From assembly GCA_900317905.1 (NCBI GenBank), contig ONIN01000004.1, positions 62,001 through 126,000 of the forward strand: a DNA stretch of 64,000 bases. Direction: 5' to 3'. Origin of the DNA: an uncultured Eubacteriales bacterium. GTDB lineage: Bacteria; Bacillota; Clostridia; Oscillospirales; Oscillospiraceae. Shown here in pieces: positions 48,248 through 51,907 of the stretch (the stretch's first letter is position 1; each line of letters opens with the position of its first letter). The notes below the pieces were generated by a model. The model made no database searches. It was not told where the DNA came from and saw only the letters and a list, made by a program, of their open reading frames with translations. Position numbers and translations under genes: made by a program.

Positions 48248-48276
48248 TTGACAAAATGTGCCCGCAGAATTATATT
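48248..48276 (+). promoter_or_regulatory. predicted promoter of the LPGS-protein/sortase locus
   Basis: A perfect TTGACA (48248-48253) and TATATT (48271-48276) with a 17-base spacer, about 80 bases before the first LPGS gene. Confidence 0.7.
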
Positions 48277-48364: not shown

Positions 48365-49132
48365 ATGAGAAACATGACAAGCACCAAAAAGATTCTGGCG
48401 CTCGTGCTGACGCTCACCGTGGTCTTTGCCCTTTCCATCGGCATCATGACCATCACTGCAAGCGCGGCTGCGTCCACCGGTGGCTCCGGCAATCTCCTGC
48501 CCGGCTCCGGCGACATCCTCAGCGGTTCCGGCAACCTGCCCGGCAGTGCTGACGATCTGCTCAAGGGCAGCGCCGGCAATCTGCCCGGCTCCGGCGATCT
48601 GATCGGCTCTGCTGCTCAGACTCTGCCCGGCTCCGCCGGCAGCGGCCTGGATCTGCTCGGCTCTGCGGCTCAGGCTCTGCCTGGCTCCGCCGGCTCTGCT
48701 GGTCTGCCTGGTTCCGGCAGCCTGCCCGGCTCCGGCGACCTGCTCGGCTCTGCGGCGAATCTCCTGCCCGGTTCTGGCGGCTCCGCCAACCTGCTCCCCG
48801 GCAGCGCTCAGGAGCTCTTCCCCGGCTCCGGCGGCTCTGCCAGCCTGCTCCCCGGCAGCGGCGGCTCTGCTGACATCCTGAACGGCTCCGGCGGCAGCGC
48901 TGGTTCCGGCGGCTCCGGCGGCAAGACCGATCCGACCCCTGCTCCCTCCAGCAACCCCACTCCCGATAACGGCGGCTCCAACACCAACGGCGGCGGCAAC
49001 GGCGGTTCCTCCGCCAGCGGCACCCCCAAGACCGGCGACGGCCGTCTGGTGATGCTGGTTGTCCTGGCTGTGCTCCTGAGCGCGGCTGTGTTCGTGGTGA
49101 CCTTCCGCAAGTTCCGCAAGAACAACACCTGA
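48365..49132 (+). CDS. LPGS-repeat surface protein with PKTG sorting signal (255 residues)
   Basis: Signal peptide at about residues 1-34 (KKILALVLTLTVVFALSIGIM core, cleavage after ASA). Residues 38-190 are low complexity, rich in G, S, L, P, A and D, and contain ten LPGS motifs followed by A or G, plus one FPGSG. A proline-, asparagine- and glycine-rich linker follows. The C-terminus is a cell-wall sorting signal: TPKTGDGR, a hydrophobic helix, then RKFRKN. TPKTG resembles the (S/P)PxTG motif known for class B sortase of C. difficile. No domain of known function is present. It shares signal and tail with the next gene and lies upstream of a sortase B, its probable anchoring enzyme. Confidence 0.8.
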   Translation: MRNMTSTKKILALVLTLTVVFALSIGIMTITASAAASTGGSGNLLPGSGDILSGSGNLPGSADDLLKGSAGNLPGSGDLIGSAAQTLPGSAGSGLDLLGSAAQALPGSAGSAGLPGSGSLPGSGDLLGSAANLLPGSGGSANLLPGSAQELFPGSGGSASLLPGSGGSADILNGSGGSAGSGGSGGKTDPTPAPSSNPTPDNGGSNTNGGGNGGSSASGTPKTGDGRLVMLVVLAVLLSAAVFVVTFRKFRKNNT

Positions 49133-49156
49133 TCGACAGACACATTCAGTAAATTC

Positions 49157-49190
49157 CGGTTCTGCATTCCGATTTCGGAGTGCAGAACCG
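49157..49190 (+). repeat. stem-loop between the two LPGS genes
   Basis: A perfect 10-base stem CGGTTCTGCA (49157-49166) and TGCAGAACCG (49181-49190), with an inner CCG/CGG. No T-run follows directly, so partial termination or 3'-end protection of the first gene's mRNA is more likely than full termination. Confidence 0.65.
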
Positions 49191-49243
49191 ACATCGCATG
49201 TTTTCCGCACATCCCCCCACCCCAAGAAAGAAGAGGTAAAACA

Positions 49244-51085
49244 ATGAGAAAAAATGCTATTCTCCAGAAGTGCCTGTCCCTCGTTCTGGTGGCCGTGTTC
49301 GTCATGACCCTGAGCGTCGGCTTCCTGGCACCTTCTGCAAAGGCTGCGAGCGACGGTTCCCGCAATGTGACCATCACCTGCAGTGATCCCACGGCCACCA
49401 TTACGGTCTGGGGTCAGAGCGGCATCTCCGGCACAACCTTCCGGGTTCCTGTGCTGGTTCCGGTGACCATCACGGTTGACCGCACGGTCTCCGGCTGGGA
49501 TCTGGTCGGCGGCCCCGGCGGCGCCGATGCGCTGTTGATTCCTGCCGGCAACACTGCGACTCTCAGTGCCCTGGCCCACAACACCGCGCCTTTCTCCATC
49601 TATGTTACGACAGGCACCGATGCGGACGCCGATGCTGACGCGGATGCCGACGCCGATTTCGACTGGTCCGACATTTTTGACGGTTCCGGTGAAGGCGGCG
49701 ACAGTGACGTTGATTGGGGCGACTGGGCTTCCAAGGCCATTGACGCTCTGAGCGACGCCATCAAGAACGGCTCTGCCAACAGCGCAGACAGCGACATTGA
49801 CTGGGCAGACCTCATTGGTCAGATCGCCAATGGCTCCGGTGACGGCGCTGACGGCGACATCGACTGGGCCGAGATCATCGGCCAGCTGACTGACGGCTCC
49901 GGCAACGACGGCAGCGCGGGCAATCTGGACTTTGATGACATCGCCGGCCTGATTGGCCCCGGCATCGCCATCATCTCCGATCTGATCGACAATGGCAGCG
50001 GCTCCGGCGGCTCCTCCAACCTGCCTGACATTGACGCCGACGATCTCGCCGGCCTGATCGGCAGCTTCAGCGATCTGTTTGACGGCAGCGGCAAGGGCGG
50101 CTCCGCCGACGGTATCGACATCGACACCATCATCCCGCTCATCGGCTCTGCTGCTGAGCTCATCCCCGGCCTCATTGACGGCAATGGTTCCGGCGGCTCC
50201 GCCGGCGACCTGCCCATCGGCGATCTGCTGGAAGGCTTCCTGGGTCTCCTGCCCGGCATCATCGACGGCAGCGGCAGCACCCCCGGTTCCGGCGGCTCTG
50301 CTGACGGTTTTGACATTGGCACCATCATCCCCCTGATCGGCTCTGCTGCGGATCTCCTTCCCGGCATCATCGACGGTGGCTCCGGCGGTTCTGCGAATGG
50401 CTCCGGCAATCTCCCCGGCAGCGGCCTTGATCTGATCACCGGCTTCCTGCCGCTCCTGCTGCCCGGTTCTGCTGCGGCTTTGATCCCGGCACTTCTGCCC
50501 GGTTCCGCTGCGGCCCTGCTGCCCGGTTCCGCTGCGGCCCTGCTGCCCGGCTCTGCTGCAGCTCTGCTGCCCGGCTCTGCTGCCCTCCCTGGCTCTGCGG
50601 CTCTGCCGCTCCTGCTGCCTGGTTCCGCTGCTCTGCTGCCCGGTAGTGCGGCTCTGCCTGGTTCTGCGGCTCTGCTGCCTGGCTCCGCTGCCCTGCCCGG
50701 CTCCGCGGCTCTGCTGCCCGGCTCTGCCAGCCTGCTTCCCGGCAGTGGCGGCTCCGGCCTCCTGCCCGGCTCTGCTGGTCTGCTCCCCGGCTCCGGCGGT
50801 TCTGCTGATCTGCCTGGTTCCGGCGGCTCTGGCCTCCTGCCCGGTTCCGGCGGCTCCGGCGGCAGTGGCAACAACCCGACTCCTGTGGATCCCGGCACCA
50901 CTCCCGCCCCCGGCGGTAACACCCCCAGCAACGGTGGCTCCAACACCAACAACGGTGGCTCCAGCACTGGCGGCAGCCCCAAGACCGGCGACAGCCGTCT
51001 GGTGATCTGGGTCGTCCTGGCTGTGGTTCTGAGCGCTGCGGTATTCTTCTTCACCTATCGGAAGTACCGCAAGAATCAGGGTTGA
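49244..51085 (+). CDS. large LPGS-repeat surface protein with SPKTG sorting signal (613 residues)
   Basis: Signal peptide at about residues 1-35, then a beta-rich domain of about 90 residues (NVTITCSDPTATITVWG through PFSIYVTTG). An acidic DADADADAD tract follows, then repeats such as DIDWADLIGQI and DIDTIIPLIGSAAELIPGLIDG. From about residue 385 there are eighteen LPGS motifs, mostly LLPGSAA and LPGSG. A linker precedes SPKTGDSR, a membrane helix and RKYRKN. SPKTG matches the class B sortase motif described for C. difficile. AGAGGT precedes the ATG, as in the neighbour gene, and the two are clear paralogues at both ends. Function is unknown; an extended, perhaps elastic, wall protein is a guess. 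Confidence 0.8.
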   Translation: MRKNAILQKCLSLVLVAVFVMTLSVGFLAPSAKAASDGSRNVTITCSDPTATITVWGQSGISGTTFRVPVLVPVTITVDRTVSGWDLVGGPGGADALLIPAGNTATLSALAHNTAPFSIYVTTGTDADADADADADADFDWSDIFDGSGEGGDSDVDWGDWASKAIDALSDAIKNGSANSADSDIDWADLIGQIANGSGDGADGDIDWAEIIGQLTDGSGNDGSAGNLDFDDIAGLIGPGIAIISDLIDNGSGSGGSSNLPDIDADDLAGLIGSFSDLFDGSGKGGSADGIDIDTIIPLIGSAAELIPGLIDGNGSGGSAGDLPIGDLLEGFLGLLPGIIDGSGSTPGSGGSADGFDIGTIIPLIGSAADLLPGIIDGGSGGSANGSGNLPGSGLDLITGFLPLLLPGSAAALIPALLPGSAAALLPGSAAALLPGSAAALLPGSAALPGSAALPLLLPGSAALLPGSAALPGSAALLPGSAALPGSAALLPGSASLLPGSGGSGLLPGSAGLLPGSGGSADLPGSGGSGLLPGSGGSGGSGNNPTPVDPGTTPAPGGNTPSNGGSNTNNGGSSTGGSPKTGDSRLVIWVVLAVVLSAAVFFFTYRKYRKNQG

Positions 51086-51091
51086 TCCTGC

Positions 51092-51153
51092 TTGTAATTC
51101 CAGATAAAATCCATTATAATGGGGCTGTCTCAAACGAGACAGCCCTGTTTTTT
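51092..51153 (+). promoter_or_regulatory. promoter followed at once by a terminator-type hairpin, before srtB
   Basis: TTGTAA (51092-51097) and a perfect TATAAT (51115-51120) have a 17-base spacer. A 10-base stem GGGCTGTCTC (51122-51131) and GAGACAGCCC (51136-51145) with a T-rich tail to 51153 begins two bases later. It can end the LPGS transcript, while a transcript from this promoter would begin inside or at the hairpin. Confidence 0.65.
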
Positions 51154-51169
51154 ATGTATGAGGTGTCCC

Positions 51170-51907
51170 ATGCGAAAACGAATCCTTCTTGCAATCCTGA
51201 TCCTCTCCGGCGTGATCTTTTTGGTCGGAGTCGGCGTTCTGCTGTACTATTTGCATCAGGACATGAGCGACAAGAACGTCCGCGAACAGGTGGCAAGTCT
51301 GTTCGGCACCACAATCGAAAACGGTCAGGAGGGCATTCCGCCGGAGTTTCAGGCCCTGTACGCTGAAAACCCAGACACCGTGGGCTGGCTGCGGATCGAC
51401 GGCACCAATGTGGACAGCGTGGTCATGCACGCTCCCTACACAGAGGAGAAATATCTCCACACGGACTTCAACGGCCAGTATTCCGCCCGCGGCACCTTCT
51501 ATGTGGCGGAGAAAAACGACCTGCTGACCTCCGACAACATCATCATCTACGGCCATCATATGAACGACGGCACCATGTTCGGCCAGCTGGAGAAGTATGA
51601 GGACTACACCTACTGGAGTCAGCACCCTACCATCATCTTCAACACGATCTACGGCTATCGCACCTATGAGATCGTCGCCGCCATCAAGACCCGGGTGCTC
51701 GCTGATTGGGAGACCGGCTTCAAGTACTACCAGTACACTGGCCACGACGACGTGCAGTTCTGGGAGTATGTCAGTTTCATTCAGCAAAACCGCCTCTATG
51801 ACACCGGCATTGAGCTCCAGGCCGGCGATCGGCTGCTGACCCTCTCCACATGCGCATACCACACCTCTGACGGACGATTCATTCTGGTGGCAAGACAGGT
51901 CAGCTGA
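51170..51907 (+). CDS. srtB: class B sortase
   Basis: A 245-residue membrane-anchored transpeptidase. A helix at about residues 6-27 is the anchor. The class B pattern is seen: NPDTVGWLRIDGT, YGHHM with the catalytic histidine at about 129, TLSTCAYHTSDGRFILVARQ with Cys228 and Arg236. Class B sortases are longer than class A at the N-terminus and between strands, which fits. ATG 51170 lies 6 bases after GAGG. It follows two genes with PKTG sorting signals and very probably attaches these to peptidoglycan stem peptides. Confidence 0.93.
   Translation: MRKRILLAILILSGVIFLVGVGVLLYYLHQDMSDKNVREQVASLFGTTIENGQEGIPPEFQALYAENPDTVGWLRIDGTNVDSVVMHAPYTEEKYLHTDFNGQYSARGTFYVAEKNDLLTSDNIIIYGHHMNDGTMFGQLEKYEDYTYWSQHPTIIFNTIYGYRTYEIVAAIKTRVLADWETGFKYYQYTGHDDVQFWEYVSFIQQNRLYDTGIELQAGDRLLTLSTCAYHTSDGRFILVARQVS

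Follow-up and report, generated by a model that had tools for sequence, protein, structure and literature searches.

Among described systems for displaying proteins on the bacterial surface, those closest to the locus reported here combine a class B sortase with wall-anchored substrates, or a terminal head with a long stalk. Recombinant SrtB of Clostridioides difficile cuts a peptide with SPKTG between its threonine and glycine, and the excerpt of that report names CD0386 as a protein with such a motif (PMC4371152). Excerpts of two further reports describe fibrillar adhesins (PMC8286594) and Periscope Proteins (PMC8201768) with an N-terminal head, a long stalk, a C-terminal wall anchor and repeat numbers that vary between species. 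The locus described here lies in an uncultured Eubacteriales bacterium of the Oscillospiraceae, on a stretch of 64,000 nucleotides of contig ONIN01000004.1 (the window; assembly GCA_900317905.1, positions 62,001 to 126,000). It consists of two proteins, A and B, that carry arrays of the motif LPGS followed by alanine or glycine, and of a class-B-type sortase gene (srtB) that follows them. We consider it probable that the three genes form a wall-display module that brings its own sortase and whose stalk is specific to the lineage. Gene order, motifs, conservation and the interchangeability of the stalk sequence can be read directly from the genomes compared; all features of the window below lie on the forward strand (+) and are numbered within it.

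Protein A (255 amino acids, aa; 48365..49132, from the translated open reading frame, ORF) comprises a signal peptide, 10 LPGS motifs (aa 45-165; 48497..48859), a linker and a sorting signal (aa 220-255; 49022..49129), with no head domain, and its repeats begin almost directly after the signal peptide. Protein B (613 aa; 49244..51085, likewise from the ORF translation) places three elements between its signal peptide and its repeats: a head of about 90 residues (aa 34-125; 49343..49618), a (DA)n run seen in the translation (aa 126-139; 49619..49660), and a 246-residue middle region in which translation and composition analysis revealed repeated DIDW and IIPLIGSAA elements (aa 140-385; 49661..50398). 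After these come 18 LPGS motifs (aa 390-535; 50411..50848), a linker and the sorting signal (aa 578-613; 50975..51082). Both signal peptides were called by eye. By inspection, the C-termini of A (TPKTGDGRLV...FRKFRKNNT) and B (SPKTGDSRLV...YRKYRKNQG) each have a PxTG motif, a hydrophobic stretch and a basic tail, and neither protein contains LPxTG. The preliminary description, made from the sequence alone, had reported two secreted proteins with 10 and 18 LPGS(A/G) motifs and PKTGD-helix-RKxRKN signals, and exact counting reproduced those numbers: 4 LPGSA and 6 LPGSG in A, 13 LPGSA and 5 LPGSG in B, so that the last place of the 28 units is alanine in 17 and glycine in 11. Its term "paralogous" suits the C-terminal anchor and the type of repeat and does not extend to the head, (DA)n run and middle region, which are found in B only; BLASTP between the two proteins gave 97.4 bits, mostly from low complexity.

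A chance origin of the arrays was ruled out by 5000 residue shuffles of each repeat region, which gave a mean of 0.12 LPGS and a maximum of 2 for A 37-219, and a mean of 0.19 and a maximum of 4 for B 386-577. The motif is spelled with 6 codon combinations among 10 units in A and 12 among 18 in B, compared with 3 among 11 in the relative G006, and because of this variety the window array does not resemble a very recent DNA expansion. Profile searches found neither A nor B to contain a Pfam domain, and sequence searches with the head of B turned up no relative of note in Pfam, NCBIfam or the PDB. Among 300 genomes of the family the head had seven matches at E <=0.01. Two were convincing, the window's own and that in the congener G002 (88% identical); the other five had E-values of 0.004-0.0095, two of them with internal stops. 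The LPGS repeat was found at E <=1e-8 in 1 of 394 genomes of the order, the window's own, a weak negative since at most nine candidates were scored per genome; the repeat-bearing G002 was not recovered there, so the sample evidently left out congeners. A PHROGs search gave no match, and four Listeria phage records that matched B did so only over 40-47 bases within its (DA)n part, which we take as chance simple-repeat similarity. The open-licence PMC literature yielded no relevant paper on LPGSA, LPGSG, the LPGS repeat or the LPGS motif as whole words, three hits being by title on unrelated materials, and none combining CAG-103, Oscillospiraceae and sortase.

The sortase gene encodes 245 aa (51170..51907). 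Its ORF as listed starts at 51119, inside a terminator-like hairpin, and the start appears better placed at the ATG at 51170, which has GAGGTG shortly upstream. The protein matches Pfam PF04203 at 48.7 bits (cut-off 26.6), and the best NCBIfam model is the class B sortase TIGR03064, at 138.4 bits and thus under the curated cut-off of 153.75, for which reason we call it class-B-type and do not assign it to that model outright. With this wording and the corrected start, the earlier statement that a class B sortase follows the repeat genes is upheld. Residues H129/H130 (in YGHH), C228 (in TLSTC) and R236 are invariant in the orthologues described below (7 of 7) and match the usual places of the catalytic histidine, cysteine and arginine in class B sortases. 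Among solved structures, those related to it in sequence are entries for sortase B, with 4lfd the best (7.5e-27) and entries titled "NPQTN specific sortase B" at 5.2e-26, ahead of 5gyj and 4ux7 ("putative peptidase C60B, sortase B"; 3.4e-20 and 7.4e-19), which we take to be the C. difficile sortase B. The resemblance to C. difficile thus lies in the motif and does not reflect nearest relationship. The suggestion that SPKTG and TPKTG fit the C. difficile class B enzyme holds for SPKTG, a proven substrate, while TPKTG does not occur in the excerpt of that work (PMC4371152). In viral contigs, no match to the sortase was found.

The draft genome, in 38 contigs, is 79.6% complete, so a fifth may be missing. 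It contains two sortase family matches and, for the patterns searched ([ASPT]P[KQ]TG[DE], SP with other serine codons, and the LPxTG type), three credible sorting signals: those of A, of B and of an SPQTGE protein of 81 aa that adjoins the second sortase. The first pattern occurs in five places, two of which are the C-terminal signals of A and the SPQTGE protein; two others fall in proteins whose C-termini do not fit, and the fifth has no motif-bearing frame. The second pattern found B alone. The LPxTG type occurred in 40 places, compared with 44 in a reversed control, and by eye none of the 40 was a credible C-terminal signal, the nearest candidate (L208) being without a basic tail. Because the anchored proteins adjoin the sortase in all seven orthologous loci and just one other credible sorting signal is present in the draft genome, A and B are very likely the substrates of the adjacent enzyme. 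At the second sortase locus (L044:7358-8528) a class-B-type sortase (130.1 bits) adjoins the 81-aa protein, which has almost nothing between signal peptide and anchor; the same pair is also present in the congener G001 (L186).

Ten congeneric genomes were compared (G000-G009, G000 being that of the window). A sortase orthologue, 46-92% identical, was found in seven of them (G000, G001, G002, G004, G005, G006 and G009), and at all seven loci an anchored low-complexity protein lies directly upstream. G003 (only 57% complete), G007 and G008 had no close sortase orthologue and no convincing match to A or B. Protein A has an orthologue in G002 that is 91% identical. At a threshold of 1e-20 the sortase matched in 53 genomes among 119 relatives, and in a sortase tree of 26 rows the seven orthologues formed one set of nine with L062 and L063 (support 98/97); L066, L099, L122 and L126 were left out of the 21 loci chosen for the tree, having no sortase ORF that passed the filter. 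At L063 an anchored fragment that is mainly (DA)n (L063:1-318) stands one gene upstream of the sortase, recalling the short (DA)n run of B, and at L062 the contig starts before any upstream anchored gene could show. A related sortase elsewhere (L065:5638-6627) has a long (EP)n run before its catalytic domain.

The stalks at the orthologous loci differ. LPGS is present in five of the seven (G000, G001, G002, G004 and G006), as LPGSA in G000, G002 and G004 (the last with 12 LPGS in an anchored frame of 207 aa) and as GSGLPGSG in G006 and G001. G005 retains only a 54-aa fragment with NNPDG and without LPGS. The complete G009 orthologue has a GGGNNGGDN stalk of 43% glycine and 30% asparagine with no LPGS at all, and keeps APKTGDTR, the basic tail and the sortase. 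Sorting signal and sortase thus appear to persist where the repeat is replaced; the repeat seems not to be the conserved part, and the stalk sequence appears interchangeable within the genus. A genome search had been proposed for the layout of two repeat proteins plus srtB; an anchored low-complexity protein directly upstream of the sortase recurs at every orthologous locus, and LPGS at five of them.

The G009 protein bears directly on a proposal that the internal LPGSG and LPGSA copies are low-affinity sortase sites at which the chain is cut or crosslinked into polymers. L-P-x-S-G does resemble LPXTG with serine for threonine, in 28 copies, and its residues are unchanged between G000 and G002, a constancy for which stalk physics accounts equally well. 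That a protein without a single LPGS keeps its signal and sortase is the main evidence against internal sites and favours a stalk; the absence of LPxTG from A and B, the lack of credible LPxTG-type anchors in the draft genome and the class-B-type sortase point the same way, and we regard the internal-site reading as very improbable. Of the two possibilities in the preliminary description, a structural chain or many sortase sites, the structural chain is the one favoured.

Several observations weigh against the wall-display module and are collected here. Contig ends cut four of the seven upstream anchored frames inside the repeat gene (G001, G002, G004 and G005; L038, L041, L043, L064 and L182). 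In a wider set of 80 sortase loci, a credible anchor was found in 10 by filter and in three more by hand (L061, L063 and L064), leaving 67 without a visible anchor, some of them cut by contig ends; in that set, adjacency of anchor and sortase is thus not the rule. The sorting signal in G001 reads GARTGD, without the proline, and the LPXTG_anchor model TIGR01167 scores 15.7 bits for both A and B, below its curated cut-off of 15.9, as the sortase falls below that of TIGR03064. The head is not clearly shared, those of G006 and G009 aligning only about 3 standard deviations above shuffles, and the whole-gene ratio of nonsynonymous to synonymous divergence (dN/dS) of A is higher, at 0.37, than that of its repeats. 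Action of SrtB on A and B, although most likely, is proposed from neighbourhood and signals.

Between G000 and G002, dN/dS was 0.13 for the A repeats, 0.21 for the B repeats, 0.13 for the B head, 0.09 for srtB and 0.37 for the B middle region, from which the A and B repeats, the B head and srtB appear to be under protein-level selection. No amino acid changed in 89 LPGS motif codons (28 silent changes), compared with 9 of 165 spacer codons (29 silent changes), giving Fisher p values of 0.029 and 0.008; as the aligner favours motif matches and gapped stretches were left out, the greater constraint on motif codons where LPGS is used is suggestive only. Such constraint might be expected if the repeats were no passive spacer but had a function of their own, whether through serine glycosylation or through binding to a ligand, to a glycan or among themselves. 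Headless A displays nearly only its repeat, a serine is present in every unit, and, in the excerpt of one report, a shared surface-protein repeat under stabilising selection has been proposed to be adhesive elsewhere (PMC6851277). Replacement of the repeat by unrelated sequence in G009 argues against this role, which we judge quite unlikely. Against G002, silent-site divergence (dS) is unusually low in A, at 0.165, where B, srtB, icd, hom and deoD range over 0.27-0.52; this could reflect a recent exchange, high expression or a strong codon preference.

The composition of the chain invites comparison with elastin, and the repeats could instead be a true bacterial elastomer or coacervate-former, with A and B assembling by themselves into an elastic coat on the surface. 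LPGSG fits xPGxG (11 of 28 units), the B core (405-497) is uncharged and rich in leucine and alanine (0% charged, 27% Leu, 30% Ala), and the disorder of elastin has been credited, in the excerpt of one study, to high combined proline and glycine (PMC5703643). VPGVG, however, is by composition 60% proline plus glycine, where the corresponding share is 36% for both repeat regions (A 37-186, B 386-541) and 28% for the core of B; 17 of the 28 units end in alanine and not glycine, the motifs are irregularly spaced at 6-18 residues, and the G009 stalk is hydrophilic. We think a true elastomer unlikely. A related and rather unlikely picture is a sortase-tethered elastin-like layer in which the hydrophobic, uncharged LPGS chain would condense to a sticky or elastic coat; A, which has no head, would be its matrix and B its functional member, and the stalk chemistry would be re-invented between congeners while the tether stays constant. 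"Elastin-like", as the preliminary description put one of its possibilities, is thus borne out in part, by the 11 units that fit xPGxG and not by the irregular spacing, and the LPGS chain would be at most a distant functional analogue of elastin.

On the favoured interpretation, a wall-display module, A and B would be exported and then held in the membrane by their C-terminal hydrophobic stretches, after which the adjacent sortase would cut TPKTG and SPKTG between T and G and join the proteins to peptidoglycan. Across the wall, the LPGS(A/G) stretches and their glycine-rich relatives would make a stalk or brush that is flexible, weakly charged and presumably extended. B would present its small N-terminal head outward, presumably for binding, and A, which lacks a head, may serve as coat or filler. 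The hairpin after A and the one after B probably step expression down, which would yield more substrate than enzyme. The first (49157..49190) is strong, with a 15-pair stem, near-identical in G002, and no T run after it. The second is terminator-like (51118..51149); a strong hairpin, with differing stem sequences, stands at this place in 7 of 7 orthologous loci, followed by at least five T in G000, G002, G004 and G006 and by four in G005 and G009, with no such run in G001. A promoter-like TTGTAA-17-TATAAT (51092..51120), found at the loci checked in G000, G002 and G004, overlaps the 5' arm of the second hairpin, and a transcript starting there would miss part of that arm and could escape the terminator met by read-through. 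Upstream of A lies a promoter-like TTGACA-17-TATATT (48248..48276; 11/12 matches), and a similar TTGACA-17-TAATAT stands at an equal offset from A in G002; the region holds 5 promoter-like sites, compared with 1.8 in shuffles.

The genus offers a natural experiment, in which one orthologous sortase locus carries LPGSA, GSGLPGSG or GGGNNGGDN stalks on similar-looking wall anchors, which opens to study the properties that count in a surface stalk. Were the LPGS chain elastomeric, bacteria would have in it a natural, tethered relative of elastin-like materials. Given that contig ends cut the repeat genes of 4/7 orthologues in draft genomes, such proteins are probably under-reported.

With elastin and elastin-like polypeptides the chain shares xPGx turns and disorder-promoting proline and glycine, and it differs in its lower content of these residues, in a serine in every unit, in alanine or glycine in the last place and in irregular spacing where elastin-like repeats are regular tandem xPGxG pentapeptides. 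Staphylococcal serine-aspartate (SD) repeat stalks place a low-complexity repeat between head and wall anchor, as B does; SD repeats are acidic, whereas the LPGS stretches are nearly uncharged. The C. difficile system resembles the locus in its class B type sortase and (S)PKTG motif, but its excerpt lists seven putative substrates genome-wide (PMC4371152), whereas those of the window are adjacent low-complexity repeat proteins and the best scores of their sortase are with other SrtB structures. In the excerpts on fibrillar adhesins (PMC8286594) and Periscope Proteins (PMC8201768), the stalks are built as arrays of folded domains, highly similar and in tandem in the latter, where sequence searches found a low-complexity repeat with no Pfam domain in A and B. 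The locus is real and under selection, and it is known in kind; what is new is that the stalk is made of LPGS repeats and is replaced by other sequence inside a single genus.

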